The notes below the pieces were generated by a model. The model did no database searches. It saw only the letters and a program-made list of their open reading frames with translations, and was not told the origin of the DNA. From positions 124,001 to 188,000 of the forward strand of contig NZ_BDGT01000002.1 of the NCBI RefSeq assembly GCF_001748285.1: a stretch of DNA of 64,000 nt. The letters are read 5' to 3'. The stretch's first letter is position 1; every line of letters begins with the position of its first letter. The stretch is from Thermogemmatispora onikobensis (GTDB taxonomy: Bacteria > Chloroflexota > Ktedonobacteria > Ktedonobacterales > Ktedonobacteraceae). Positions 11,866 through 39,521 of the stretch are shown piece after piece. Made by a program: the position numbers and the translations under genes.

Positions 11866-13374
11866 CTATCGCTCTCGTCCCTGTTCTCCGCCCTCGGAAG
11901 AGGGGCCATCGGCTGTCAGGCTGGCCAGCCAGGGCGGGAGCGTTGAAGACCCTGGATCTGTCTGCCGCTCTCCAGGCGAAGGCGCGGGAGTAGATGGTCC
12001 TGGAGACCCGGGCTGGGGCGAGAGCTGGGGGGGCATCTCATGGAGGCCGCTACCGGTACCGGGGCCGGTCGGAAGAGACATTCCCTCGGCGGGAACCAGG
12101 CTGGTAGTTGGGAAAAGGAAATTCCCATTGAAAGGGCTGGTTCCGTGCGGTGGGAAGGCGAGATTCGAGGCCACCGGGAGCTCGCCCGTTGTGGGCATCA
12201 GGCTGGTGGTCGGGAAGAGAAAATTGCGCTTGAGGCGACTGGAGGCGGGGCCGCCGGAGGTCGCACGGCTGGTGGCCGGACGCCGTGCCGTATCTTCCAG
12301 GGGGCTGGAAGGAGAAGCGCTCTGCCTGTGCTGGGCCGAGGAGGAGCTGCCGGGGGTCACCGTCAGCCCGGTCGGCGTGAGTGGCAAATCATGGGCGACC
12401 GTGGTAGACAGGGGCGATGGTCGGGTCGAGGCCGGCGAGGGAGCTGCGGTCGATGGAGACATCGACATGGGCATAGAGGTGGCCGGCTGCATTTGCGTTG
12501 GAGCAGCGGCAAAGGACTCGCTGGGCGGGGCTGGCATTGCCTTGCTCAGGAGAAGTGGCGCCTGTTGAGCGGAAACGGCTGCCGGCTGCCAGTTGCTGCC
12601 CAAGGTGAGGCTGCTGGGGCTGCCCTCCAGAGGTAAGGGCAGGGGATTGCCCGCCAAATCGCGGTCACCTGCCAGGCTCTCCGGGCTGCGGGTGCGGCGC
12701 CAGGGGCGCGCGCCGGAGGCCAGACGCGGGCGCGGCAACGGCTCAGGAGCAATGTAGTGGCGCAGGAGGAGTACGCCCACCAGAATCAAGGCCAGTAGCA
12801 GCAAGACGATGCCTGTCACCACTGGAAGAAAGCTCAGATTGTTGCGCTGGGCGATGCGTGTCGTGGCCGCTGTATTGTCATTGCTCTGCTGGCCATTATC
12901 GGTATTGCCATTTGTCGTGGCGGGGGCCGCCGTGGGGGTCAAGGCTGCCTGGCTGGTAGCAGTTGCTTTGGCGGTCGCCGTGGGTGTTACAGTGACAGTG
13001 GCCGCCGCCGTAGCAGTGGCAGTGACGCCAGGCGCTGCAGTCGGCGACGCGGTGCGCGTCGGTGCCGGGGGAGGCGTGCTGGTTTTGGTTGGTTGGGCCG
13101 TTGGGGCAGAGGTGGGAGAAGGAGGCGGTGTCGTCGGCTGCGCCGTGGGTGTGGGTGTAGGCGGAGCCGTGGGCGCCTCCGTTGGCGAAGCAACCACCGT
13201 CGGCGAGTCGTCAAGCGGCTGCAGAAGCGGAATCTGCGGCCCTGATGCCGCATACATCGGCACCAGATTGGCTAGCACACCAATCACGGAAACTGCTAGG
13301 AGACAAGTACAGATAGTGAGCGTGAGCGTCCGTAATAAAAATTTCCCCAGGTCGGGGTCGGTCTGTCTAAACAT
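11866..13374 (-). CDS. Thr/Pro-rich membrane-anchored surface protein
   Basis: This 502-residue protein has an N-terminal membrane helix or signal (about 12-40). A long low-complexity linker rich in Thr, Pro and Ala (PTPTPTA type repeats) follows. A second membrane helix lies at about 185-207 (FLPVVTGIVLLLLALILVGV), and the C-terminal half is Pro/Ser-rich. Near the C-terminus an NFLFPTTSL motif occurs twice in near copies. No catalytic domain is seen. The orientation of the tail is not certain. It has its own promoter at 13538-13566. The role could be cell-surface or wall related. Confidence 0.7.
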   Translation of the reverse strand: MFRQTDPDLGKFLLRTLTLTICTCLLAVSVIGVLANLVPMYAASGPQIPLLQPLDDSPTVVASPTEAPTAPPTPTPTAQPTTPPPSPTSAPTAQPTKTSTPPPAPTRTASPTAAPGVTATATAAATVTVTPTATAKATATSQAALTPTAAPATTNGNTDNGQQSNDNTAATTRIAQRNNLSFLPVVTGIVLLLLALILVGVLLLRHYIAPEPLPRPRLASGARPWRRTRSPESLAGDRDLAGNPLPLPLEGSPSSLTLGSNWQPAAVSAQQAPLLLSKAMPAPPSESFAAAPTQMQPATSMPMSMSPSTAAPSPASTRPSPLSTTVAHDLPLTPTGLTVTPGSSSSAQHRQSASPSSPLEDTARRPATSRATSGGPASSRLKRNFLFPTTSLMPTTGELPVASNLAFPPHGTSPFNGNFLFPTTSLVPAEGMSLPTGPGTGSGLHEMPPQLSPQPGSPGPSTPAPSPGERQTDPGSSTLPPWLASLTADGPSSEGGEQGRER

Positions 13375-14165: not shown

Positions 14166-15596
14166 CTACTCTTGATGCGTATTCTGACTGCGGCCTGGCA
14201 AGACTGATAAGCCGCTTTGCACCTGGCGCATCAAGGTCTCCAGGGAGACCTCGGTGGGGGCGCTAGCTGTCTGCTCCTCTTGGGCCTGGGCCTCGATGGT
14301 GGGCGAGGGTCCTCCCTCGCCATGCTTCGGTGGCTGTTCGGGTGGAGAGCCATTCGTCATCGTCGGCCTCACGCTAGACAGAGGGAGCGTTTCGCTCTCG
14401 TGGACGGAGCTGAAGCGCGTATTGGCTGGCTTCTGGCGTCGCTGACGGTATTGAACAAAGCCGCCGAGAAAGCCGAAGAGAAGCAGGCCGCCGCCCGTGG
14501 TTCCGAGTAGCCAGGGGAGCAGCTGGCTAAGGGGCGATGACGGGCTGGTCGGGGCTGTTGTCTGCGACGTGTTCCCCGTCTGAGTGCTGGCGGTAGCGAT
14601 TGCCGGCATACGGTTGGTATTGCTATCAGCAGTGGCGCTTGGTGGGACCAACGTTGGCGTTGGGGTGTGCGTTGGCGTTGGAGAGGGGAGTCTTGTCGGA
14701 GTGGTGGACGGTATCGGCGTCGACCCCGGTATGGGTGCAGCGTTGATCGTAAAAGCGACGCTGGCGCTGAGGGTAGCCGGCGAACCGCTCCCGGCGCTCG
14801 CTTTGATTTGGGCTGGACCGACAAGGCCGTTGGGAATAGTAATGCTGCGTGTGAAGCTCCCCTGTCCATCGCTCGTGACGCTCCCCAGGCTGGACGTGGT
14901 ACCGCTCGCTTGCAGGACCAGCGTCACCTGGGTACCACCGGGGAGGAAATTGCTCCCTGTGACGGTAGCGGTCTGGCCTGCTGTCACCTGCGTTGGGCTG
15001 ATGCTCAGCCTGGGTGGCGCGCTCGACAGCAAAGTATAGCTACCGGCCAGGGTTGGCGTGGCCTGGATGAGGGCGCAGATTTTGTAAGTGCCTGGGGCCA
15101 GGCTGGCTGGCAAGACCAGCCAGCCGCTAAAGCTACCGCCCTCTACTGTGCCTGGCTGACTATTGCTGGCTGGGGTGTAGCCGAGCAGGCAATCCTGCTG
15201 GCTATAGCCCAGCGAGACCTGAGTGCCGTCGCTCAGCTGGGTCCAGCCAGAGCCGCTGACCGTAATCACTGTGCCCGCTGGACCCGAACTAGGGCTGCTG
15301 CTAAGCGTGCCGCCGTCCCTGCTCGCCGCGCGTGCTGGGCCGCTGCTCCCCATAGCCAACAACCAGGCTACCAGTAGCCCGATAAGAAAGAGGCCCATAC
15401 CTCTGGCTGGGCTGCGATGATGAAGCCATGCTCCAGATGGCTTCTGGCGCAGTGCCCGTGCCCGCTGTTCGGGGGCCTGTGCAGTAACATCGAAGGCTAC
15501 AACTGTCTCGCTTGCGTACGCCATGCTGCCGCTAAAATAGCTCCCGCTGGCGGGAGCCTGGCCGCTGTGATGTGCGGTGCTTGCGTATAAATCCAT
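14166..15596 (-). CDS. Membrane-anchored surface protein with Ig-like domains
   Basis: The 476-residue product has about 65 cytoplasmic residues, then a membrane helix (MGLFLIGLLVAWLLAMG). Two IPT/TIG-like beta-sandwich repeats follow (SPSSGPAGTVITVSGSGW and SPTQVTAGQTATVTGSNF). A Pro/Thr linker (TPTHTPTPT) comes next, then a second helix (LLPWLLGTTGGGLLLFGFL) and a cytoplasmic tail. The IPT start pattern 'P..G..G..VTV.G.G' is clear twice. Such proteins usually display domains on the cell surface. It shares its architecture with the 11866-13374 gene (two helices around a Thr/Pro linker). Confidence 0.75.
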   Translation of the reverse strand: MDLYASTAHHSGQAPASGSYFSGSMAYASETVVAFDVTAQAPEQRARALRQKPSGAWLHHRSPARGMGLFLIGLLVAWLLAMGSSGPARAASRDGGTLSSSPSSGPAGTVITVSGSGWTQLSDGTQVSLGYSQQDCLLGYTPASNSQPGTVEGGSFSGWLVLPASLAPGTYKICALIQATPTLAGSYTLLSSAPPRLSISPTQVTAGQTATVTGSNFLPGGTQVTLVLQASGTTSSLGSVTSDGQGSFTRSITIPNGLVGPAQIKASAGSGSPATLSASVAFTINAAPIPGSTPIPSTTPTRLPSPTPTHTPTPTLVPPSATADSNTNRMPAIATASTQTGNTSQTTAPTSPSSPLSQLLPWLLGTTGGGLLLFGFLGGFVQYRQRRQKPANTRFSSVHESETLPLSSVRPTMTNGSPPEQPPKHGEGGPSPTIEAQAQEEQTASAPTEVSLETLMRQVQSGLSVLPGRSQNTHQE

Positions 15597-15663: not shown

Positions 15664-16104
15664 CTATGCCTCGACCAGTTCAATGGTCACCTCGTAGCTG
15701 AGACCCCCTGGCGCGCCGCTGGAGAGAGGTACCTGCTGAGTATGCAGATCGCAGGCGTGTTCGGCATAATAGTCGAAGTGCACGGGGATGGGTGTCCCGC
15801 CAGTTGGCTCGCTAAAGAGAAGTGTGCGTCCGGTCGAGGAGAGGTAGCTTGTGCGCAGAGCATCGCGGTAGTACTGACCGCTCAGACCAGTAGGCCGGCC
15901 ATCGTAGCCGACGAGGTCATTGAGACAGAGAATCGTCATACTCCAGGTCCTTCGGCCCGGACCAAGATCGACGTAGGCCTCGCCTCCGTCTGCGCGCACG
16001 CTAGCCCGTCGGATACGTGGCTGCGCCATGCGGTAGCTGCCTGGCTTGACGAAGTAGCCGACTCCATCCAGGATGATCTCGCAATCCACGCCGATAGTAG
16101 GCAT
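15664..16104 (-). CDS. Putative phage tail or baseplate-like protein
   Basis: The 146-residue protein is rich in beta-strand patterns (GVDCEIILDGVGYFVKPGSY, SYEVTIELVEA) and has no membrane part. It is the last gene of the minus-strand phage-structural operon, starting four bases after the stop of the gene before it. Size, strand content and position suit a small tail or completion protein. I recognise no exact family, so the role is inferred from context. Confidence 0.5.
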   Translation of the reverse strand: MPTIGVDCEIILDGVGYFVKPGSYRMAQPRIRRASVRADGGEAYVDLGPGRRTWSMTILCLNDLVGYDGRPTGLSGQYYRDALRTSYLSSTGRTLLFSEPTGGTPIPVHFDYYAEHACDLHTQQVPLSSGAPGGLSYEVTIELVEA

Positions 16105-16108
16105 ACCG

Positions 16109-16504
16109 CTAGACCTCCTCGTGACGGTGGTGTGCCGCTATGCCAAAGTTGTCCGCTGGACTGGGGGCTGGAGCAGGCTGTACCTTCTCGATAATGCGGC
16201 TGGTCTGGGAGCAAGAGCCGCTGTGGTCGTGGATACTGACCAGCTCGCCGTCGATAGTGATATGGAGGCCGCGCTGCTGCAGAGCCAGGCGAATAGTGCC
16301 GATGATCTGGCTCAGGCGCAGGTTCTCCTTCTCCAGGGTTGCCAGACGATCCTTGAGCGTATCAATCTCGTGTTGCATGACACTGATGACGCGCGCCTTG
16401 ACCTCGTCGGCGGTGCGTGCAAAGCCGTGGTGGTAGGCGACAAAGGCGCCGGCGATCAGGGCCAGAGTAATGAGCAGGTTGGTCAGACTCAGCAGGTCTT
16501 GCAT
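16109..16504 (-). CDS. Membrane-anchored coiled-coil protein in the phage-like operon
   Basis: The 131-residue product starts MQDLLSLTNLLITLALIAGA, a single N-terminal membrane helix. A heptad-type coiled coil follows (about 40-75, with DTLKDRLATLEKENLRL) and then a short beta-like tail. AAGGAG lies nine bases before the ATG. A larger open frame to 16987 in the same phase has no coding character upstream. In phages a one-helix protein at the end of a structural operon may be holin- or spanin-like, but nothing here proves lysis. It may link the particle to the membrane. Confidence 0.55.
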   Translation of the reverse strand: MQDLLSLTNLLITLALIAGAFVAYHHGFARTADEVKARVISVMQHEIDTLKDRLATLEKENLRLSQIIGTIRLALQQRGLHITIDGELVSIHDHSGSCSQTSRIIEKVQPAPAPSPADNFGIAAHHRHEEV

Positions 16505-16550
16505 GGGATGCTTCTCCTTATTGTCGATTGTACGATGGACGTAGCGACCG

Positions 16551-17717
16551 CTAGAGGCGGGCCCAGCGAGCAGGGATGTCGCCCCATTGCACACGGGCAG
16601 CGCTGGCGAAGTCGCGTTGGTTGCGAATCTCCTGCAGGCGAGCCTCAAACTGGATTCGGCGGGTAGCGATGGCCTCTTGCCAGGCGCGAGGAATCGTGCT
16701 GTCATCGAGGTGGTCATGCAACTCGCCGTTCTGAAAACTGAAGTTATCGTTTGTGGGCACCTGATAGGCCTCCATAGCGTAGAGGCTGGCCCCCAGGACA
16801 ATGAGGTCGCGATGCAGCTCGGGCACAGTGGTGCCGCTGGCATCGAGCTGATGCCTGGTGGCATAAAAGACGCGCATGACAAGGGTATTGTCACGAGGCA
16901 GCTCGGCGTTGGAGAGTTTGAGCGTGAAGCTCGGAGTCTGAGCAGCAAGCTGGCCCTGGCCGCTGCCGACATTTCCCTGGAGGCCAAGGTTGCCGCCGGC
17001 AGCCAGGGCGGCGCTGCTCTCGAAAAGATTGGAATATTCGGCGAAATCGCGCTCTCGGGGAGGCCAGAGCATCACGCCGCTGGTGTTCACCGTAGGCGCC
17101 GGAGGGCGGCCTGTCAGAAGGCTATCGGGTGCAGTGTCAAGGTAGCTCGTACTGCTATTGTCTGCTAGAGTTGCCAGGAGCAGCAGAGTACTGCCTCCGG
17201 CTTGCGTTCGATAGAGGTTGCGCCCAATGACGCTGTTGAGGGCACTGCCGGCCAGAGCGGGCTGTGTCGGACCGAGGGGGATATTGCTCAGGTTGACGCT
17301 ACCATTGTTCGCTACCCAGACGCTCGTGACGGGGGAGGGAGTGGTCTCGCCGCCCTCGCTCAGAAAAGTGACGGCGTACTGATAGAGGCCGGCGCTGAGT
17401 CCCCCGCCGCTGCCGGGGCTGGCGCTCAGGCCGCCTGGTGGTGGCTGAAAGTAGCTGCCGTAAGCCTGTAGCGGGTAGATGATGCGTTCGATCCACCAGA
17501 CTGGATAAGCCGGATTCCACGGTTGTGGATAAGGGTAGGTCCGCTGGTAGGGGCGGGTGCTCATATCGCAGTAGCCGATGTTGGGATAGTACTGACTGTA
17601 GCGGATGACGGCTTTGTCGATCGCGCGCTCAAGGTCTGCGCTCGACCAGCGCTGATTGGGACCCGCGGGATCGAAAAGATCGAGGCGCAGAGCATTTTCG
17701 ATGTCCAGGAGGTTCAT
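16551..17717 (-). CDS. Phage head-tail connector-like protein with an inserted beta-domain
   Basis: Residues 1-45 (MNLLDIENALRLDLFDP, then QRWSSADLERAIDKAVIRY) match the start of gp6-type head-tail connector or adaptor proteins. Residues of about 105-195 look like an inserted fibronectin/Ig-like sheet (GLYQYAVTFLSEGGETTPSP). The C-terminal part is helical again (WQEAIATRRIQFEARLQEI). The start at 17717 is chosen by homology and an AAGGAGG some 12 bases upstream; 40 more codons are open upstream. At 388 residues it is longer than usual connectors because of the insertion. Confidence 0.6.
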   Translation of the reverse strand: MNLLDIENALRLDLFDPAGPNQRWSSADLERAIDKAVIRYSQYYPNIGYCDMSTRPYQRTYPYPQPWNPAYPVWWIERIIYPLQAYGSYFQPPPGGLSASPGSGGGLSAGLYQYAVTFLSEGGETTPSPVTSVWVANNGSVNLSNIPLGPTQPALAGSALNSVIGRNLYRTQAGGSTLLLLATLADNSSTSYLDTAPDSLLTGRPPAPTVNTSGVMLWPPRERDFAEYSNLFESSAALAAGGNLGLQGNVGSGQGQLAAQTPSFTLKLSNAELPRDNTLVMRVFYATRHQLDASGTTVPELHRDLIVLGASLYAMEAYQVPTNDNFSFQNGELHDHLDDSTIPRAWQEAIATRRIQFEARLQEIRNQRDFASAARVQWGDIPARWARL

Positions 17718-17842
17718 CCCGTCTGCGGTCCTCCTTGCTGCTGTGCTACTGTTTGCTGAACGGAGAGCTGCCCGCGCCACGCGCGAGGAGGACCTCATTT
17801 CGGTCTTCCTCGGCGTAGCGCGATGAGCAAAGCTCAAACAGG

Positions 17843-18439
17843 CTAGCTGATATAGCCGCAGGTGACGAGCGTGACGGTACAGGTGGCCCCTACGGCCCGG
17901 ATGTCGATCTGCCCATTGCTGTCGAGGGGCAGGATGGCCTGGCCCTGCCAGCGTGCTGTTGTGGAGAGCAGGTCGCCACAGGTGACCGTCTGGGCCAGAT
18001 TGCCGCCGTGGGGGGCGATGTCCAGGCGAGCTGGCTGGCTGCTGGCGCTAAAAGAGATCTTGGCCAGAGCAGCCAGCGCGCCGAAAGGGATGCCGCTGCT
18101 ACCACCGACCAGCGTGAAGGTAGCGGTAGCTCCATTGCTGATGGCGACGTTAGTGAGCTGTTGCACACCGTTCACCAGCGTCAGGCGGCCTGGTGGTGGC
18201 ATGGGCAGACCGCTGAGGCCGTTGGCGTAGGTGGCAATCACTACGGCGTCCTGGGGATTATGCTCGTCGAAGAAGAGCACGGCGCACAAGGCTCCAACCA
18301 GGCTGCTGCTCCCGTCGAGGCTATTGGCCACTGGTACACCCTGGAGCATATGGGAAGTGGCTTCAAAGAGCAAGACCGCAGCCTGGTACGTGCCTGGGTT
18401 GAAGGCCTGGATGATGCCACGTCTGATGCTGACTCCCAT
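17843..18439 (-). CDS. Phage baseplate/spike-like beta protein
   Basis: The 198-residue product opens with GIIQAFNPGTYQAAVLL, followed later by VPVANSLDGSSSLVGALCAVLFFDEHNPQDAVV. This resembles the OB-fold start of phage spike or baseplate proteins (a 'G.I...P......V.L....V.V........G..V.V.F......' pattern). The C-terminal half is strand-rich with repeated Gly and Thr. It fits the structural operon. The match is by pattern only; no certain family is claimed. Confidence 0.5.
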   Translation of the reverse strand: MGVSIRRGIIQAFNPGTYQAAVLLFEATSHMLQGVPVANSLDGSSSLVGALCAVLFFDEHNPQDAVVIATYANGLSGLPMPPPGRLTLVNGVQQLTNVAISNGATATFTLVGGSSGIPFGALAALAKISFSASSQPARLDIAPHGGNLAQTVTCGDLLSTTARWQGQAILPLDSNGQIDIRAVGATCTVTLVTCGYIS

Positions 18440-18493
18440 AGCGAGCCTTCTCTCTTTCTGCTGCCAGATGCCTGATTCAGGTGATCATGGAGG

Positions 18494-18784
18494 CTAGGCG
18501 TCATTGGCCCCCTGGCCGGGCTGTGGTGCCGCATCGGGGCTGCCGCAGGCATGGAAGCTTGCCGCCGTGTAGCTCGTGCCAAGCAGAGCGTTGAGGGCCG
18601 CGGCAATGTTGGCAAAGGTCTGGCTGCCCGAGGGATCAACACGGCAGAAGATGCCGTCTTGGGGGAGCACCGCGTCGCTGGTTGTCTGGAAAATGCACAT
18701 GGTGCGCGGGTTGAAGTAGCTACCCGCTGGCACTGTGCTGCCGCCATTGTAGCGTCCGTAGGCGAATTCGAGGATGTCCATCAT
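18494..18784 (-). CDS. Small hypothetical protein of the phage-like operon
   Basis: The 96-residue product starts MMDILEFAYGRYNGGS and ends in a Gly/Ala/Pro tail. It has two cysteines and no membrane helix. It lies 76 bases after the fibre-like gene and 54 bases before the spike-like gene, all on the minus strand. No family is recognised. It is probably structural or an assembly factor, judged only from position. Confidence 0.5.
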   Translation of the reverse strand: MMDILEFAYGRYNGGSTVPAGSYFNPRTMCIFQTTSDAVLPQDGIFCRVDPSGSQTFANIAAALNALLGTSYTAASFHACGSPDAAPQPGQGANDA

Positions 18785-18860
18785 GGCCTGGCTCTGTGGT
18801 TCCTTTCTCCTGCGCGGGATTGTTTGACTGTCGGTTGCGGGCGCTTACGCTCAGCGCCAG

Positions 18861-19916
18861 CTAGATTTCAAGCCATTTCAGAGCGGCGGCCCAGCTGTTG
18901 CTGCTCGTTGCCACGTAGATGACCAGGCCGCTCCCTGGTGGCAGGATGATCAGGGCGCCGTTGTTAAGGAAATCGATGGTGGTATTGGAGACGAGCAGCA
19001 GGGTATCAAGCTGGCTGCCTACAGGTGTGAGGTTGCTGTTGCTCATGCTGGCACTGGCCACACTGGCGGGGCCGCCGGGCTTGAGGTTGAGCGGTGTGAG
19101 GGCGGTTCCCAGGGCTGGGTCACTGCTGGTCAGGTTGAGCTGGTGCCAGCTCGAAGCGGCCTCGGCTACACGTGCTGAGAAGACATGCAATGTCTTGCCG
19201 GAACTGCTGGGATTAAAGAGGCTCAGCCCGGTGGTTGCAGTGGCTGTGCTGGTCTGCTTGCCGGTAGTGACGCTGTAGCCCTGGCCATTACTCAGCCACT
19301 CATTGAACTGCTGACGTACGAAAACTGGGTTGCCAACGCCGGGTGCAGCGCCGTTCCACTGGGCAATGTTGACCTGGGTCCGTCCGGCGCTATCGAGCAG
19401 GAGAGGTGTGTCACCAGCGCTGCTGCTCTTGCCGTAGTTGGAGACGCGGAGTTCGTTGCTGCCGTCCAATCCTGGTGTAGTGCCACCGATCTGGGCGATG
19501 TTGATGGCCTGGTTGGGCACCAGTTGCAGGCGCCCATTGCTATCGATAGCCAGTAGATTGCTACCGCTGCCATCAGCCAGCCTGACCTGTCCAATGAGAT
19601 TGCTGCCGGCGGGGAGAGCTGGCAGGCTGTTGACAGTAACGATCTGGCGTCCAGCGCTGTCGAGCAGGACAGGTGTATCGCCGGGAGCGCTGCTTTTGCC
19701 GTAGAGGCTCACCCCCAGACGATTGGCACCAACGCCATCGACCTGGGGTGCAACACCGTTCAGCTGGTTTAAGTTGACGTTCTGCTCAGCGGCGGCATTG
19801 AGCGTAGCGGTCGTTTTCAGATTGCCCTGGGCGTCGACTTGTAGAGCCTGGCCCACGCCGCTGGGATTCACGCCCCCGATCAGCAGCGAGCCATCGCTGT
19901 TGAGGTAGCCTGACAT
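18861..19916 (-). CDS. Head-fibre or decoration-like protein with repeats
   Basis: The 351-residue protein has two clear copies of a repeat containing YGKSS..GDTP.LLDSAGR (about residues 73-90 and 165-182). A related shorter copy contains the N.NQLNG/IAQIGG motif. The C-terminal ~140 residues form a separate strand-rich domain (LHVFSARVAEAASSWHQL). Repeats of this kind occur in phage head-fibre and tail-fibre proteins. It lies directly after the capsid gene (21 bases gap), as head-fibre genes often do. Confidence 0.6.
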   Translation of the reverse strand: MSGYLNSDGSLLIGGVNPSGVGQALQVDAQGNLKTTATLNAAAEQNVNLNQLNGVAPQVDGVGANRLGVSLYGKSSAPGDTPVLLDSAGRQIVTVNSLPALPAGSNLIGQVRLADGSGSNLLAIDSNGRLQLVPNQAINIAQIGGTTPGLDGSNELRVSNYGKSSSAGDTPLLLDSAGRTQVNIAQWNGAAPGVGNPVFVRQQFNEWLSNGQGYSVTTGKQTSTATATTGLSLFNPSSSGKTLHVFSARVAEAASSWHQLNLTSSDPALGTALTPLNLKPGGPASVASASMSNSNLTPVGSQLDTLLLVSNTTIDFLNNGALIILPPGSGLVIYVATSSNSWAAALKWLEI

Positions 19917-19937
19917 AGGGTCCTGCCTCCTACCTGC

Positions 19938-22088
19938 TTAGACGCCACGGTAGAGACCGCGATAGTCGACGACGGCGCCACCGTATTCATGACGGATCTT
20001 GTAGGAAATGACGTCTTGAGTAAAATTTAGCCCGTAGAGGGGCTGGTCCTGAATAAAGAGCACAGGATTCACCTGGCCGCCGACGAAGCCGATTTCAATG
20101 GTATCGACTTCGCGTGGATCAGCCACCAGGAACCACTGGGTTGGACTGGTGAGCTGGGGCGAGACGATGGGGGTGACGTAGCCCATCATAGGGTTAATAT
20201 CGTTGTTCGGAGAACCGGGCATACCCGCCGAGCGCGTGGCGATCATCGCGGTCCATTCCAGCTCGGGAGGGACAACCAGGTAGCGCGGGCGCAGTCCGAT
20301 CCGCTTGCCTGCAAAGTTGGTCTGTTCGCGCATAGCCGTGACCCCGGCCTGCATAGCGGCTGTTGAGAGGGCGGCGTTGCCGAGGTTGTTATGCGGATTG
20401 CCGGTCGTAAAGAGTGGGGAGCCGTCGTAGATGGTGGGGTTGCCTGAGAGGAAGCCGTAGGCGAATTCGGCCAGGGTGTAGGCGGCGGCCACGGCCAGCT
20501 TGGTGGGGATCTGGCGAATGGCCATCAGGTCATCGTTGATGATGGTTTCGCGTGAGATGGTGACCAGATTGCCGCGCTTCATAGGAACGTAGGTGGCGGC
20601 GGTATCGGTCAGACTAAGAGTAGTGTAGGCGCTGTCTTCGGCCACAGTCGAGAGGCTGCCGAAGGCGCCCAGGCGCACGCGCGTCTGTTGCTTGAAGTCT
20701 TTGATAGGCACAACGGTGCAAAATTTCTGCCATTCTGCTGGCCAGGCCTGGTAGTCTTTGAGAAGGCGCTTGTTCATAGAGGTGCCCAGCAGGTAGCTGA
20801 AGGAAGCAGTGGTTGTGTCGCCCTCGCTGATGCGCATCAGGGGGGCATGCTCCCCGATACGGATCTGGCCAAGCAAGCTACGCTCAGAGAAGCTACTGAC
20901 GCTTGGGTCGCCAGTGACGCAGGCGTACGCTTCGCGGATACTGGTGAAGCCGCGGATGTTGCCCAAGCGGCTGGTATCAATCTCCAGTTCGAACATGCGA
21001 TCAAAGGCTGCCTGGATTTTCTCGGCCTCGGTAATTTGCTCTCCGATCTCGGGGCGAGCGTAACCGTGGTCGCGCACGAGACCGGTGGCGGCCAGCTCAG
21101 CAAGCATGTGGCGTTGCTCCGCGATAGCCTCCTCTAATTCGGCCATCTCGAAGATGCGTCCCTCATAGCGGTGGCGGAGATGTTGCTTGACGACCTCGGG
21201 CAGGTGAACCTCCTGCAGGCGTCGCTCCAGGGCGAGGCGGGCACGCTCAAGGCGTAGCTCTTGCAGGATGGTCTCAAGCGCTGGTGTGGGCGAGGGAGCC
21301 TGCTCCTGCTCACGGATAGAAGCGAGCTGGTTGGACTGGCTTGAGAGAGTGCTGTTCTGGTGGGTGGTCGTGTTGATCGAGGGGACGGTCTCGCTCATTG
21401 AGTGACCTCGCTGGAGGGGAGCCGACGCTGCCCTTGAAAGGGCGTCGGCCTCTTGGGACGGATAACGGTCCTGAAGAATCCGGCGGATAGTGCCGCCAGC
21501 ACTGGGGCGAGTGACGATGTCACAGGAGTTCAGGGCGCTGACGCTGATCACTTCGCGCAGCGGGCGGGAGCTATCCCGACTCTCGCGTAGCTGCCAGGTG
21601 CCGTAGATGTCGATTGAGAGACCGATCAGGCCTGGCTGGCCCAGGGTGCAGGCTTCGCGGATCAGGCGCCAGAGCCAGTCGGCGGATTCGAGAATGTGGA
21701 GGGTGGCGTCGACACGCCCATGCTCGCCAGCGGCAGGCGGTACATAGTGCGGAGCGCGGTAGAAGCCCACGATGTCGCGCACGGAGCGAACAGCGCTCTC
21801 GCCGTCGCTGCGGGCATGATCAACGTAGGCGTGAGCGTTGTCGAGCAGAGTGGCGAGGCGTTGAAGGATAGCCTCGCTGTAGTAGTAACCGTTGAGGCTG
21901 GCTCCACCGCGAATGACGGTTACCAGGACATCGCGGCGCTCATCTGGGGGGAAGGTCTGCTCTTCACGGATGAATCCTTCTATGTGAATGTGCTCCTGGG
22001 GCTGAACAGGGCTGCTGCTGGCGACTTGCTCTGTTCCGGCAGGGCTCTGGTCGACGTGATCAGAGGGGAAGGTATGCTCAGCGGTCAC
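19938..22088 (-). CDS. Fused phage prohead protease and major capsid protein (Mu gpT-like)
   Basis: The 716-residue product joins two phage functions. Residues about 50-205 resemble a prohead serine protease: the candidate histidine is H91 (VDHARSD), the candidate serine S158 (GLIGLSID), and the domain closes with SCDIVTRPSAGG. Residues about 230-340 are charged and helical, like a scaffold (LRLERARLALERRLQEV). Residues about 350-716 resemble Mu gpT-type major head proteins (FCTVVPIKDFKQQTRVRLG, ETIINDDL, DGSPLFTTGNPHNN). GTG start with AGGAGG upstream; it overlaps the gene before it. In most phages protease, scaffold and capsid come from separate or nested genes. Confidence 0.75.
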   Translation of the reverse strand: MTAEHTFPSDHVDQSPAGTEQVASSSPVQPQEHIHIEGFIREEQTFPPDERRDVLVTVIRGGASLNGYYYSEAILQRLATLLDNAHAYVDHARSDGESAVRSVRDIVGFYRAPHYVPPAAGEHGRVDATLHILESADWLWRLIREACTLGQPGLIGLSIDIYGTWQLRESRDSSRPLREVISVSALNSCDIVTRPSAGGTIRRILQDRYPSQEADALSRAASAPLQRGHSMSETVPSINTTTHQNSTLSSQSNQLASIREQEQAPSPTPALETILQELRLERARLALERRLQEVHLPEVVKQHLRHRYEGRIFEMAELEEAIAEQRHMLAELAATGLVRDHGYARPEIGEQITEAEKIQAAFDRMFELEIDTSRLGNIRGFTSIREAYACVTGDPSVSSFSERSLLGQIRIGEHAPLMRISEGDTTTASFSYLLGTSMNKRLLKDYQAWPAEWQKFCTVVPIKDFKQQTRVRLGAFGSLSTVAEDSAYTTLSLTDTAATYVPMKRGNLVTISRETIINDDLMAIRQIPTKLAVAAAYTLAEFAYGFLSGNPTIYDGSPLFTTGNPHNNLGNAALSTAAMQAGVTAMREQTNFAGKRIGLRPRYLVVPPELEWTAMIATRSAGMPGSPNNDINPMMGYVTPIVSPQLTSPTQWFLVADPREVDTIEIGFVGGQVNPVLFIQDQPLYGLNFTQDVISYKIRHEYGGAVVDYRGLYRGV

Positions 22089-22560
22089 GGGAAACCTCCT
22101 GGCCTGCCCAGGAAGTCGACCTATTACTCAGCGCCAGCAGCAGCGGTGCCAGATGACGCAGGCGGTGGGTCATGCCGCCCTGGGTCGTGCGCGTCTCTTC
22201 GTAGTAGAGCGTCGGGGGCAGTGCCTGGACATCAGCACTGCGCTGGAGGCGGGTTGCGCCCTCTGGGGCCAGCGTGGCCGGTGTTTCGCCCAGGGTGGGG
22301 GCTACCTCTGTCTGGCCCACAGCATGCTCGCTAGGGGGGAAGCGCAAGAGGTTGGGTGGGAGCAGTGGCGCCAGCAGGGTAGGCAAGGGTGGATCGGGCC
22401 GATCAGTGGGGGGCAGATCCAGAGGGGCAGAAGCCGACAGCCCGAAAGAGAGCGTAGCTGGATCAGGCTGCTCTGGATCGGGAAGCGTCAGCGCGGGCAG
22501 GCCAGGTGGATCTGGCGCGAGCGGAGGGAAACGAAAAGTGGGGAGCTGATCATCGGTCAT
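22078..22560 (-). CDS. Pro-rich protein at the head of the capsid operon
   Basis: The 160-residue product from the ATG at 22560 has an excellent AAAGGAGG site six bases upstream. The first ~110 residues are extremely rich in Pro and Leu (FRFPPLAPDPPGLPALTLP). The last ~50 are charged and partly hydrophobic (LYYEETRTTQGGMTHRL). The open frame reaches back to 22779, but without a ribosome site. Its end overlaps the capsid-protease gene by 11 bases. No family is recognised; a scaffold or adaptor role is only a guess from position. Confidence 0.55.
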   Translation of the reverse strand: MTDDQLPTFRFPPLAPDPPGLPALTLPDPEQPDPATLSFGLSASAPLDLPPTDRPDPPLPTLLAPLLPPNLLRFPPSEHAVGQTEVAPTLGETPATLAPEGATRLQRSADVQALPPTLYYEETRTTQGGMTHRLRHLAPLLLALSNRSTSWAGQEVSRDR

Positions 22561-22874
22561 GGAGGACCTCCTTTCTCGCTGTGGCTGGGTAGGTGGGCGA
22601 GGCCACAGAAGAGGGGATGAGTGAATGCGCAGGTTGGACGGTGCTCCACAAGGGTGGAGAGCCGCCAGCGCGCGGTGAGGAGAAGAAGTCAGCGATGCAG
22701 CCGCGAAGGTGGGGGTGAGCGCCGCTTTGCAGGCACAATCGAGAAAGGACAGATCATGGGTGGGCGCGAGAGGGCACACTCACCGCTGCCTTGCCGGGAC
22801 GTGAAGGGGCACGCCGGAGGCCGTTTCGTGGTTGCATCGTGCGGTGGCAAGCGGGAAAAGCTTACCAAGTGACA

Positions 22875-22903
22875 AGTATAACTGAGGCTTAGGGAGAAGT
22901 CAA
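22875..22903 (-). promoter_or_regulatory. Near-consensus promoter of the capsid operon
   Basis: On the minus strand: TTGACT (22903-22898), 17-base spacer, TATACT (22880-22875). It gives a leader of about 310 bases before the first gene (start 22560). The leader itself holds no other convincing gene. Confidence 0.85.
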
Positions 22904-22945
22904 GCCTATTCGTGGCCAACTGTTTCAGGGCCTGACCCTCTCTTC

Positions 22946-22974
22946 TTGACAGGTTGCTTGCCATACTCTATACT
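22946..22974 (+). promoter_or_regulatory. Near-consensus promoter of the portal gene
   Basis: TTGACA (22946-22951), 17-base spacer, TATACT (22969-22974). It is back-to-back with the capsid operon promoter: the two -35 boxes are 42 bases apart. The leader to the portal start is about 180 bases. Confidence 0.88.
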
Positions 22975-23161
22975 TGGCTTAGCTGGCAGTTTGCCACCTG
23001 CCACATCCTCGCCTACTGCGCACGGCTCGGGCGACCGTTGTACTCGTGTCCCCTGGCCGTGCCGCATCTCGCCACTCGCCTCTGTAGGAGAAAGGCGCTC
23101 TGCCCTATAGCTCCGGCAGGGCCCGCTTGCCCCTCATCGTTGCCTCACGAGGAGGTTCCGT

Positions 23162-24697
23162 ATGCCGTCGCGCTTCTCTCTCCCAGGCTGGCTTCCCAAG
23201 AAACGTACTGCCGCAAGCCGCCACTCCCCTGTCGGTGAGGCCGTCGTGGGAGCGGCCCCGACTCTTGACCGCATCAGCGAGCAGCTCAATCCCACTACCT
23301 TTGCCTCCAGTCCCACGCAAGAAGACTGGTACTGGGGGCGACTCGCCACTGGAGGGGAAGAAGATTACTTCTGGCGCCGTCTTTCGGACAATTGGTACCA
23401 AAAAGACCCCATTCCCTCGACCTACCTCGAACTTCACAACCAGTGCTATGAAGCCTACAATGCCAATCCTCTGGCCTTTGCCATCATCGAAATCACCACC
23501 AGCTTTGTCATGGGAAAAGGCGTCACGATAGCCGCGCGTGACCCACAGGTGCAGCGCGTCCTGCTTGACTTCTGGCATGATCCCGAGAACCACATGGAGA
23601 CGCGAGTCTACTCCCTCTGTACCGAGCTGGCGCTCTACGGCGAACAGTTCATCCGCTTCTTCGTCAACCCCTATGACGGGCGCGTCACCATTCGCCAGAT
23701 CGACCCCTCGCTCATCGATCAAATCGAGACCGATCCCAACGACATTGAGAAGCCCTTGCGTTTCCACCGCCGTCCCGTCGGTCCCTCGGCCAGTCTCCCG
23801 AGCGATGCTGACCAAAGCGGTGCTCGCTCATCCAGCGCTCAGCCACCGGTCGCTACCTCTGCTGCTTCTCTTGAGGGTCAGTGGCTCAAGGCCGGTGAGG
23901 AGGTGGTCCAGTTTACCATCAATAAGGTCTCCAGCGCGAAACGCGGCAAAAGCGACCTGGCCACCCTCTTGCCCTGGCTGCGCCGCTACAAGGACTGGCT
24001 GACCGATCGCGTGCGCATCAACAAGTACAAGGGAGCTTTCTTGTGGGATATCCGTCTGCAGGGGGCTGATCGCAAGACCATCGAGCGCAAAAAGATGGAA
24101 TATAGCTATCCGCCGGAACCGGGCAGCGTGATCATCCACAACGAGGCCGAGACCTGGTCGGCCATCAAGCCGGAGATCAATGCCAACGAGGCTGCCGAGG
24201 ACGGACGGGCCCTTAAACTGATGATCGCTGTTGGCGCGCAACTGCCCGAGCATTACCTTTCTGACGGCAGCTACAGCAATCGGGCCACCGCCGCTGAAAT
24301 GGGCCTGCCGACGCTGCTCAAATTCCAGCGTCGGCAGTACGTCATGCGCGCCATGCTGCGCTCCATTCTCGACCGCGTCCTGCAGGAGGCCTGTCGTGCT
24401 GGCAGATTGTCCCCAGAGGTTGACAGGCACTACGACATCATCTTCCCCGAAATCGAGGTCACTGATCACGCTACCCTGGCCAGCGCTGTGCAGATGCTGG
24501 TCTCGGCCCTCAGTACGGCTAAAGCCCAGGGCTGGGTCAGTGACGAGACGGCCATGCGTCTCTTCTTCCAGTTCGCCGGTGAGGAGATCGATGTGCACGA
24601 AGAGCAAGGACGCATCGGCCATCAGAGCGATCAAAGTGGGCATGAGGATGGCTCTGGAGGTGCCAGCCCTGCGGAAGGGAAGCCACGGCCTCTATGA
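23162..24697 (+). CDS. Phage portal protein
   Basis: The 511-residue product resembles phage portal proteins, the ring at the capsid vertex. Characteristic parts are YEAYNANPLAFAIIEITTSF near the start and EFIRFF-like strands (YGEQFIRFFVNPYDGRV). RQIDPSLIDQIETDP, the clip/stem region (KYKGAFLWDIRLQGADRK) and RATAAEMGLPTLLKFQRRQ can also be seen. A variable Ser/Ala-rich loop lies at about 205-235. GAGGAGG lies six bases before the ATG. The portal is encoded on the opposite strand to the capsid gene, an unusual arrangement for phage morphogenesis genes. Confidence 0.8.
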   Translation: MPSRFSLPGWLPKKRTAASRHSPVGEAVVGAAPTLDRISEQLNPTTFASSPTQEDWYWGRLATGGEEDYFWRRLSDNWYQKDPIPSTYLELHNQCYEAYNANPLAFAIIEITTSFVMGKGVTIAARDPQVQRVLLDFWHDPENHMETRVYSLCTELALYGEQFIRFFVNPYDGRVTIRQIDPSLIDQIETDPNDIEKPLRFHRRPVGPSASLPSDADQSGARSSSAQPPVATSAASLEGQWLKAGEEVVQFTINKVSSAKRGKSDLATLLPWLRRYKDWLTDRVRINKYKGAFLWDIRLQGADRKTIERKKMEYSYPPEPGSVIIHNEAETWSAIKPEINANEAAEDGRALKLMIAVGAQLPEHYLSDGSYSNRATAAEMGLPTLLKFQRRQYVMRAMLRSILDRVLQEACRAGRLSPEVDRHYDIIFPEIEVTDHATLASAVQMLVSALSTAKAQGWVSDETAMRLFFQFAGEEIDVHEEQGRIGHQSDQSGHEDGSGGASPAEGKPRPL

Positions 24698-24816
24698 GTC
24701 TTGTAAACCCTGGCTCTCGCTTCCCGATGAGGTTCCCTTCTTCTCCTGTTGTCCAGTACCAGCGGTCAACTGGCTGCGCTCTCTAGAGAGCATCTCTGCG
24801 CTGCAGGAAGGAGATC

Positions 24817-25092
24817 ATGAGCATGTCGCGGTCACTTCCTTTGCTCCAGTCTCAATCGGGCCACCGCCGCCTCAAGCAGGCACCGTCTACCCTTGTCGGC
24901 CCCCTGGCTCGCAGCCAGTCCTTGCCTGCCAACCGCCAGGGGCTGCTCTCTGACGCCCGCCATCACGGCTATGCGCTGGCCCACTGTCACCAGACTCCTG
25001 GCCTTGGTGGGCCTGTACCGGCTTTCCCCTCCTGGTGGACTGGCGTTCCGCAGGAGGAGGGCGACGACCAGGAGCGCCAGCTCCCCCTTTGA
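24817..25092 (+). CDS. Small hypothetical protein after the portal gene
   Basis: AAGGAG lies five bases before the ATG, a strong start signal. The 91 residues are basic at the start (SGHRRLKQAPS) and rich in His, Gly and Pro later. No family is recognised and the composition is not clearly that of a folded protein, so the support is mainly the ribosome site and the place between two island genes. Confidence 0.4.
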   Translation: MSMSRSLPLLQSQSGHRRLKQAPSTLVGPLARSQSLPANRQGLLSDARHHGYALAHCHQTPGLGGPVPAFPSWWTGVPQEEGDDQERQLPL

Positions 25093-25187
25093 GGACTGAC
25101 TCTACCCCCCCAGTAGGACCCGGGTTAATCTCGGGTCCATCTGGGCAATCTGATGCTGTATTGGCAGAGCAGAAAGGAAATAAACCC

Positions 25188-25571
25188 GTGCCTCTCGACG
25201 CCCGCAAAACTCAGCACGTACTCCAGCTCATCAACCGCAGCTACGCAGGGCGCCAGCGTAGCCTTGTCGCCGTCGTGCTCAGTGGAGGCAGCTACAGCTA
25301 TCGTCTCATCCAGGGCATTCTGCGCCCCCTGCACTGCCCTGATCCCCAGGTCTATGATACCAGTGGTCAGCCGCCGCGACCCGAGGCCGATCTCTTGCTC
25401 ATTGCTCCTCTGGGCACCGACTTCAGCGGTGTTGTCTACCTGGCTGATTGTACTGTGGCCAGCGCCAGTGCCGTGGCCACGGCGGTCAAATACGAGCTGA
25501 TCGAAGCCGTACCTGTGGGCCTGCTGCCCGGAGGAACCCATCTGCGCGTTCTCCTGCGCCGCCTGCGCTGA
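25188..25571 (+). CDS. Hypothetical protein at the end of the portal operon
   Basis: The 127-residue product starts at GTG with AAAGGA nine bases upstream. It has alternating alpha and beta patterns (VPLDARKTQHVLQLINRSY, SLVAVVLSGGSYSYRL, ADLLLIAPLGTDFSGVVYLA). The open frame reaches back to 25035, but those 51 codons are Pro/Gly-rich and overlap the gene before it. No family is recognised. It is probably cotranscribed with the portal gene. Confidence 0.55.
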   Translation: MPLDARKTQHVLQLINRSYAGRQRSLVAVVLSGGSYSYRLIQGILRPLHCPDPQVYDTSGQPPRPEADLLLIAPLGTDFSGVVYLADCTVASASAVATAVKYELIEAVPVGLLPGGTHLRVLLRRLR

Positions 25572-38501: not shown

Positions 38502-39521
38502 TCAGACAGGAAAGGCCAGGCGTCGATACTTCTCTCGCGATTCGAGCCAGGCTTCATCAGAGAGACCCAGCCGCTCGCGCAGCGTCTCGAAGGAAACGCC
38601 CGCTCGCAGTTGGCGGACAGCAAAGGTATCGCGTAGCAGCTGCAGCGTCACTCGCTTCTTGATACCAGCTGCTTTGACCGCGCGCGCCAAAATATAGTTG
38701 AGATTGCGATCGGTGCAGTTAAAGAGCGTCTCGCCCGGCTGATGCTGATACTTGCTTAAATATTCTCGTACAATGTCCGTAAACTCGGGTGGCAGAGCCA
38801 GACTGCGCTCGCGATGCTGCTTACCCGTTGAGGGAGGAAAATGGACGCTTACCAGCGGCTGCTGTGGGTTGGAGAGATCGATGTGCTCTGGCTTGAGAAT
38901 CATGATTTCTTCTTTCTTAAGGCCCGCATGCAGCGTCAGATAGATCAGGCAGAGGCAGCGTGCATCATCGGCTGCCGCTTTGAGCAGCCGCTCAATCTCT
39001 TCCTCGAAGAGAAGCTCCGGTAGAGGCGGCAAAGGACGCTCCAGGATGAGGCTCGCCGAAGGATCTTCACGAATCACTCCTTCACGTGCCAGCCAGGAAA
39101 AGAAGTTCTTGAGAAAGGTGACTCGTCGTGCCATCGTCTTGGGGGCCGGCGTATGATCTTTATTGCCAAATTTCAGCTTCATGAGCCAGTCGACAAGGTC
39201 CTCTTTGGTAATCCTGCCAACAGGCGTCTCTGGCCCCATGAATTCGCTGAACATCTTGAGGTCAGAGAGGAAGCAGGTGATCGTATAGTTCGATTTCCCC
39301 CGCAGCTTCAGCTCCTGCTGATAGGGCAAGGCACAGGCTGCCAGGCTGGACTGCTCGGTCAGCGGCTGAGTACGCACCAGCGGCGGAAAAGGGACCTCGC
39401 GCGGGTCCGCCGGCTGAGCAACGACCTGCGTGGCCCCAGGAAAAAGACCAGTTTGGACCACTACGCGCTCGTCTTGCGCTACGCTCTCCGTTGGCTGCTT
39501 CTTCTGACTATCCTCGTGCAT
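38502..39521 (-). CDS. Tyrosine recombinase-like protein with changed catalytic residues
   Basis: The 339-residue product has a core-binding N-domain (YQQELKLRGKSNYTITCFL; residues about 60-170) and a C-terminal Tyr-recombinase domain. The conserved GLR arginine reads GLKKEE, so the first Arg is Lys. The HxxRH box reads LQLLRDTFA, so His is Gln. The LGH position reads LGLS. The tyrosine itself is kept (REKYRRL). It has its own good promoter. A role in Xer-like dimer resolution is doubtful; it may bind DNA without cutting, or use a variant mechanism. An ~60-residue N-terminal extension is unusual. Confidence 0.75.
   Translation of the reverse strand: MHEDSQKKQPTESVAQDERVVVQTGLFPGATQVVAQPADPREVPFPPLVRTQPLTEQSSLAACALPYQQELKLRGKSNYTITCFLSDLKMFSEFMGPETPVGRITKEDLVDWLMKLKFGNKDHTPAPKTMARRVTFLKNFFSWLAREGVIREDPSASLILERPLPPLPELLFEEEIERLLKAAADDARCLCLIYLTLHAGLKKEEIMILKPEHIDLSNPQQPLVSVHFPPSTGKQHRERSLALPPEFTDIVREYLSKYQHQPGETLFNCTDRNLNYILARAVKAAGIKKRVTLQLLRDTFAVRQLRAGVSFETLRERLGLSDEAWLESREKYRRLAFPV

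Follow-up and report, generated by a model that had tools for sequence, protein, structure and literature searches.

A dispersed set of capsid, terminase and hub genes in Thermogemmatispora onikobensis as a probable gene-transfer-agent-like system

We analyzed a capsid island at positions 15,664-25,571 of a 64-kb stretch of the Thermogemmatispora onikobensis genome (hereafter, the window; contig C2 of genome G000) and found that the island is real and present in a single copy. We interpret it as the head and connector locus of a domesticated caudovirus that occupies at least three fixed chromosomal places and most likely resembles a gene transfer agent (GTA); the probability that we assign to this interpretation is roughly 0.68. 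The predicted products make up a putative minimal particle set: portal, fused protease and capsid, adaptor-like, tube-fold and spike-like proteins, a baseplate hub, and a terminase large subunit (TerL) with intact ATPase and nuclease motifs. Judged from the comparisons below, this set is single copy, subject to purifying selection and vertically inherited, without integrase or replication genes. Our best reading is a GTA-like viriform, for which we infer packaging and transfer. Under this model, the capsid and portal operons would be transcribed in few cells, under host control, from a divergent promoter pair; the terminase would load host DNA into the heads, one headful at a time; and the particles, with short tails made of hub and spike, would leave the cell and deliver host DNA to kin. 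A very short tail is predicted because g1 has a predicted tube/baseplate fold and g4 is spike- or fibre-like, and no tape measure or sheath gene was found in the island or in the compact Dictyobacter cluster described below. The original prediction, made from the window, had proposed either a domesticated particle or a satellite, with no recognisable terminase or tail genes; the domesticated particle is supported, whereas the satellite and the lack of terminase and tail at the genome level are not.

Dispersed loci and their inheritance

Genes outside the window were located by targeted searches of the genome (G numbers other than G000 denote genomes of relatives, and L numbers denote extracted loci). 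The query for TerL was the terminase large subunit of a phage relative in IMG/VR (L053), itself reached via portal homology. The window's genome contains one such gene, at G000:C14:86359-87978. Its product matches Pfam Terminase_6C above the cut-off and, by profile, the solved TerL nucleases 5tge/5m1f, and the Walker A (RQxGKN), Walker B (ExDEAQ) and nuclease (D...HDD) motifs are conserved in 19/19 aligned members. It should be noted that the Terminase_6N model PF03237 misses this TerL; therefore, absence of PF03237 was not taken as absence of a terminase. TerL is single copy in 23 of 29 Ktedonobacteraceae genomes, and a few genomes have extra fragments. The Mu-gp44-like baseplate hub is likewise single copy (G000:C11:49902-51956) and falls in PHROG under baseplate hub/tail protein; hub homologs have a gp44-like second domain (in the phage homolog, a weak match) and a BNR-like domain (also weak). 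Thus, the statement that terminase and tail genes are lacking holds locally, as the island and its surroundings yielded neither a terminase or tape measure gene nor one for an integrase or lysis, but fails at the genome level, with TerL on C14 and the hub on C11.

In T. carboxidivorans PM5, a genome in one contig, the distances are 0.45 Mb between island and TerL, 2.22 Mb between island and hub, and 1.77 Mb between TerL and hub; in T. tikiterensis T81 the three loci are 0.40-2.45 Mb apart. With loci separated by 0.4-2.5 Mb, the set would be unable to package itself as a unit. The flanks of all three loci are ordinary chromosomal genes, with no integrase at the edges. The tyrosine recombinase nearest to the island, an Xer-like gene at 38502-39521 of the window, has a counterpart in all genomes checked and does not represent an integrase belonging to the island.

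Of the 29 Ktedonobacteraceae genomes, 22-24 contain the genes for portal, capsid, terminase and hub together, and the major capsid protein (MCP) and TerL are present in the identical 23 genomes (Fisher p=2e-6). At the class level, MCP was found in 23/29 Ktedonobacteraceae, in the sole genome of the neighbouring family, and in 0/17 genomes of two further families. The check suggested originally, a search for the same gene set at a conserved locus under purifying selection, gave a positive result: the island is syntenic, with the same surroundings, in 6/6 Thermogemmatispora genomes. Within the genus, the median ratio of nonsynonymous to synonymous substitution rates (dN/dS) is 0.05-0.12 for g1, g3-g7, the portal gene, g11, TerL and the hub gene, at dS of approximately 0.4-0.8, and 0.17-0.23 for g2 and g8; neighbouring host genes have values of 0.05-0.20. 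The HEAT-repeat and DUF1015-like neighbours of TerL are shared among Thermogemmatispora, G002, G003, G004 and Tengunoibacter, and the hub gene adjoins folD and a cyclodeaminase gene in Thermogemmatispora, Tengunoibacter and G010. Because these sites are common to several genera, TerL and hub genes have been in place since before the genera split, so that the scattering is old and was inherited vertically. Every marker tree recovers the genus clades, and the Mantel test against rpoB is significant over all genomes (p<=0.0015). Two full-length rpoB matches are present in many large-genome Ktedonobacteraceae (G006, G014-G018, G025 and others).

As a yardstick we used the six GTA features of Kogay et al. 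2022 (PMC9662315). Four of them are visible in the sequence: (i) families of caudoviricete origin are present (MCP, portal, TerL, hub), which is the half of this feature that sequence can provide; (ii) endogenisation is complete and involves multiple loci, three each in G000 (C2, C14, C11), PM5 and T81; (iii) judging by locus spacing in PM5 and T81, the GTA genome would not fit into one particle; (iv) inheritance is vertical within Thermogemmatispora and, by shared loci, over four genera. The remaining two, a cargo of mostly random host DNA and its delivery to other cells, are predicted here as particle properties. With four of six features, the system is termed GTA-like and not a proven GTA.

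Genes and control region of the capsid island

The predicted position and intact frames of the island were borne out: all frames are open, those of g1-g8 being encoded on the minus strand and those of g9 (the portal gene) and g11 on the plus strand. The count of eight minus-strand and three plus-strand genes is one too high on the plus strand if g10 (24817-25092) is discarded; with dN/dS of 0.53, this frame is doubtful as a gene. Coding limits of g2, g3, g8 and g11 were corrected to those given here.

15664..16104, minus strand: g1, tail-tube-fold protein of baseplate/tail-tip type, 146 aa (AlphaFold2 pLDDT 89; Foldseek; dN/dS 0.057)
16109..16504, minus strand: g2, membrane-anchored coiled-coil protein, 131 aa (N-terminal hydrophobic stretch and coiled coil; dN/dS 0.166)
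16551..17717, minus strand: g3, probable head-tail adaptor/connector with Ig/FN3-like insert, 388 aa (PHROG and PDB matches; dN/dS 0.074)
17843..18439, minus strand: g4, spike/fibre-like protein, 198 aa (AlphaFold2 pLDDT 81, all beta; dN/dS 0.061)
18494..18784, minus strand: g5, small conserved cassette protein, 96 aa (most clusters and phage L053 have a homolog; dN/dS 0.049)
18861..19916, minus strand: g6, fibre/stalk-like protein, 351 aa (variable middle between an N-terminal anchor and a C-terminal domain that are both conserved; dN/dS 0.061)
19938..22088, minus strand: g7, prohead protease fused to HK97-fold MCP, 716 aa (Pfam and PHROG profiles; dN/dS 0.112)
22078..22563, minus strand: g8, proline-rich protein upstream of MCP, 161 aa (dN/dS 0.227)
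22875..22903, minus strand: promoter-like site TTGACT-17-TATACT of the capsid operon; behind it, a conserved leader extends to 22564 (region kept in six genomes)
22946..22974, plus strand: promoter-like site TTGACA-17-TATACT for the portal operon (11/12 consensus matches; hexamers identical in six genomes)
23162..24697, plus strand: g9, portal protein, 511 aa (phrog_10963, E=5.1e-42; orthologs in 24/29 family genomes)
25188..25571, plus strand: g11, small conserved protein after the portal, 127 aa (GTG start; homologs behind the portal in other genera and phages; dN/dS 0.110)
L120:10476-10674 (G002) and L042:15614-15870 (G018): group I introns (Rfam RF00028, 53 and 58.7 bits) inserted at the same position close to the capsid gene's 3' end (approximately codon 696) in two genera

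The portal and the protease-capsid fusion, both named in the original prediction, are clear. The portal gene is intact in the window. The capsid part of g7 matches Phage_capsid_4 over residues 421-714 (E=3.7e-50) and phrog_29592 (6.8e-102); its protease part matches the head maturation protease phrog_15531 over residues 56-210 (E=2e-6), and H91 and S158 are invariant in 15 homologs. The predicted fold of g1 has its best Foldseek PDB matches in baseplates of diffocin (8v3w, E=5.8e-6), R-pyocin, Mu and phi812. The connector is a different case. The matches of g3 (head closure phrog_8040, 2.7e-5; phrog_511, 4.3e-8; PDB 9vel, Gp6.1) agree with the predicted role, but they all cover the inserted Ig/FN3-like segment (residues ~97-212), so that the label is weak and g3 is a probable head-tail adaptor or connector. 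Foldseek matches of g4 are weak as well (Bd2133 fibre, 5e-5; P2 gpV spike, E=0.019). For g6, only query residues 1-40 and 208-351 align by tblastn in other genera and in phage L053. Homologs of g2 are found in other genera and in the same phage, and its spanin matches are only weak, at chance level; proline-rich homologs of g8 occupy the equivalent position in other genera and in L053.

The predicted promoters were recovered as two promoter-like sites in the sole divergent intergenic region, conserved in the six Thermogemmatispora genomes. The non-coding stretch 22564-23161, which separates the capsid operon from the portal operon, shows strong conservation among the six species, in blocks that extend beyond the promoters, and is possibly a leader or operator element. 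An RNA element in the conserved leaders was considered and dropped, the folding z-score being only about -1.9 to -2.0; the Rfam scan of the window returned tRNA-Arg only. A regulon shared by island, TerL and hub was dropped too, because a TATACT-like -10 box is all that the regions upstream of TerL and hub have in common with it. Adjoining the island are two proline/threonine-rich surface-type proteins (14166-15596 and 11866-13374), one of them with a TIG domain; the TIG-domain neighbour is kept beside g1 across the genus. Both are absent from the related phages and were thus not counted as parts of the island.

Related phages, interrupted genes and rival explanations

In Dictyobacter aurantiacus, the whole set lies within 13.7 kb between ordinary chromosomal genes, in the order portal, g11, MCP, g6, g5, g4, small helical protein, hub, C39 peptidase, holin-like, g3, g2, g1, TerL. 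This compact cluster contains no integrase or replication gene and no tape measure or sheath. The small helical protein that compact clusters encode between g4 and the hub was considered as the terminase small subunit (TerS) and is a candidate only, with no family match. The LLH holin and C39 peptidase of some compact clusters were not found in Thermogemmatispora.

The IMG/VR phage 3300027706_000012 (L053/L075/L076; 48.3 kb) combines the island cassette in one unit with TerL and further phage genes, among them a tyrosine integrase. It resembles the Thermogemmatispora set in portal (63%), MCP (57%) and TerL (55%) and has homologs of g4, g5, g6, g11, g2, g3, g1 and hub. Unlike the dispersed set, this phage and 3300031520_000006 (L196/L225) have contiguous 46-48-kb genomes with a tyrosine integrase, and they also hold a methylase, a HerA/FtsK-type ATPase and a C39-type peptidase, with an LLH holin in L196. 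No full prophage with terminase and integrase was seen within the genus, although these phages join the same cassette to an integrase; pseudogenes in relatives, the other sign of a remnant named originally, occur as broken copies in other genera, but the Thermogemmatispora locus is conserved. At least one IMG/VR "virus" contig (L176) agrees in length (21,533 bases) and locus coordinates with the contig G011:C171 of a Ktedonobacteria metagenome-assembled genome; therefore, pieces of bacterial chromosomes probably account for some of the viruses listed with this capsid.

At least three relatives have an interrupted portal gene. In PM5 (L033/L077/L028) it is split by a 41,604-bp element with the 10-bp repeat TTCTGACGGC, and in strain brp13 (L047/L048) by 224,460 bp with the repeat GGTAGGTGC; in the metagenome-assembled genome G011 (L025), a related element abuts the C-terminal portal half. 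A large serine recombinase is located at the junction in all three. Joining the PM5 halves yields an in-frame 512-aa portal that is 92.6% identical to that of the window, and the brp13 halves are also in frame; hence, in these two cases with both ends known, excision would restore the portal frame. The recombinases of brp13 and G011 are related and target nearly the same portal spot in different genera. The split portals of Ktedonobacter racemifer and K. robiniae lack part of their sequence and appear to be dead. The hub gene of T81 is interrupted by approximately 7.4 kb including assembly gaps (L168:7476-14899). The portal interruption could be a switch, or a mere landing site in a rarely needed gene. 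The sigK skin element of Bacillus and the comK prophage of Listeria are recombinase-interrupted genes, sigK being restored in the Bacillus mother cell. By this analogy one could imagine a recombinase-gated GTA, in which the portal, split at conserved sites in part of the family, would be restored only in particle-producing cells; we regard this as a speculative and rather unlikely variant. The likeness to sigK and comK is that a gene of a specialised cell state is divided by an element encoding a recombinase, that there is a short direct repeat, and that excision would regain the frame; the difference is that the split gene here is a phage portal and its excision is predicted from sequence.

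TerL itself contains an unusual site. At about codon 149, Ktedonosporobacter rubrisoli G018 (L107/L080) and G011 (L106) have the same 5-nt insertion (CCC ACG TAA CG TTT/TAC), which creates an in-frame stop, and both TerL halves around it stay open and conserved. It was found at two of about 50 TerL sites and not in IMG/VR. The ACG...ACG layout recalls the take-off and landing codons of translational bypassing, and the insertion may instead be a scar.

Several observations weigh against a GTA-like particle. Small terminase, holin and endolysin were not found in Thermogemmatispora, where the TerS candidate of the compact clusters was not used as a query. When each genus is represented by a single genome, MCP and TerL are significantly congruent with rpoB, whereas portal and hub are not; copies are broken or missing in G007, G009, G015 and G016. 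Because the sole portal of PM5 and the hub of T81 are interrupted, two of the six species as sequenced would be without particles unless excision occurs. In the MCP tree, the integrase-bearing temperate phages branch among bacterial copies; therefore, a single domestication is not established, and there may have been several domestications or movement of capsid genes between phages and hosts.

The broken copies in several genera, the missing lysis and TerS genes, and the interruptions in PM5 and T81 are what a slowly decaying remnant would leave, i.e., an old prophage, broken, scattered and functionless, whose genes look good because decay is recent. We consider this unlikely, because unselected genes would not outlast a divergence of dS ~0.4-0.8, across which dN/dS is 0.05-0.12; furthermore, three unlinked loci are kept together in the same genomes, catalytic motifs are invariant, and sites are common to several genera. 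Slightly less likely still is a domesticated particle with another job, in which capsids or hub-spike complexes would kill competitors or deliver protein instead of DNA. The retention of hub, tube-fold and spike proteins is compatible with it, as are the weak BNR-like match in a hub homolog and the small proteins of no assigned role. However, head genes are present, no sheath, tube or tape measure of tailocin type was found in the island and no sheath or tape measure in the D. aurantiacus cluster, and the joint conservation of portal and TerL with both active sites is hard to explain without DNA packaging.

The existence of related temperate phages makes decay or repeated domestication possible. 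If such phages were acquired repeatedly and co-diverged with their Ktedonobacteria hosts, independent prophage insertions could mimic domestication; phages with the same cassette and a tyrosine integrase, nested among host copies in the MCP tree, fit this scenario, which may still hold for G011 and similar genomes. As a general explanation it is very improbable: TerL neighbours are identical in four genera and hub neighbours in three, solitary genes are not prophages, and the system differs from a complete temperate prophage in having unlinked TerL and hub genes and no integrase at the island or the D. aurantiacus cluster. A helper-dependent satellite, as the original prediction had allowed, would account for an island without terminase and lysis genes, but is largely refuted by the system's own portal, MCP and TerL, the last elsewhere in the genome, and by the lack of an integrase at the island; in addition, no PF03237-type helper terminase was found in any Thermogemmatispora genome. 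The domesticated, GTA-like particle agrees with the conserved locus in six genomes, low dN/dS, fixed sites across genera and lack of an integrase at the island.

Relation to known gene transfer agents

RcGTA and other alphaproteobacterial GTAs (Rhodogtaviriformidae) resemble the Thermogemmatispora system in caudovirus-derived head and packaging genes, vertical inheritance, unlinked loci and absence of replication genes. RcGTA has a siphovirus-like tail. By contrast, neither a tape measure nor a major tail protein was found here, and the solitary TerL is separated from the capsid genes by hundreds of kb; moreover, the hosts belong to different phyla, and the comparison is one of gene roles and layout, not of protein homology. 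Dispersal as such is familiar, as RcGTA occupies five loci (PMC9662315), and in Brachyspira terL lies outside the 16-kb structural cluster (PMC9662315; PMC11841831). BhGTA/VSH-1 of Brachyspira (Brachygtaviriformidae) is thus similar in having a structural cluster (16 kb in BhGTA) and a single terL outside it; however, BhGTA has an endolysin, its transfer is proven experimentally, and host and genes differ. The best match among isolated phages, Microcystis phage Mae-JY22 (PP438414; MCP 32.5% over 92%, portal 30%), is distant and has annotated tape measure-like and amidase genes; neither TerL nor hub of Thermogemmatispora has a match in it at E<=1e-3.

For the GTAs of Alphaproteobacteria and Brachyspira the genetic basis is known, and those of Desulfovibrio and Methanococcus voltae are known experimentally (PMC9662315, PMC11841831); in the open-access literature, we found no GTA report for Ktedonobacteria or other Chloroflexota. 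If our interpretation is correct, it would explain why prophage finders overlook such systems and would provide strains for testing DNA transfer. The series from the compact cluster of Dictyobacter to the scattered loci of Thermogemmatispora and Ktedonobacter would represent successive stages of domestication, and developmental control could be tested directly on the recombinase-split portal. The Thermogemmatispora system is apparently GTA-like and of an origin separate from that of known GTAs, with RcGTA compared by description; a scattered, vertically kept packaging system in culturable Ktedonobacteria would thus represent a separate origin of GTAs.

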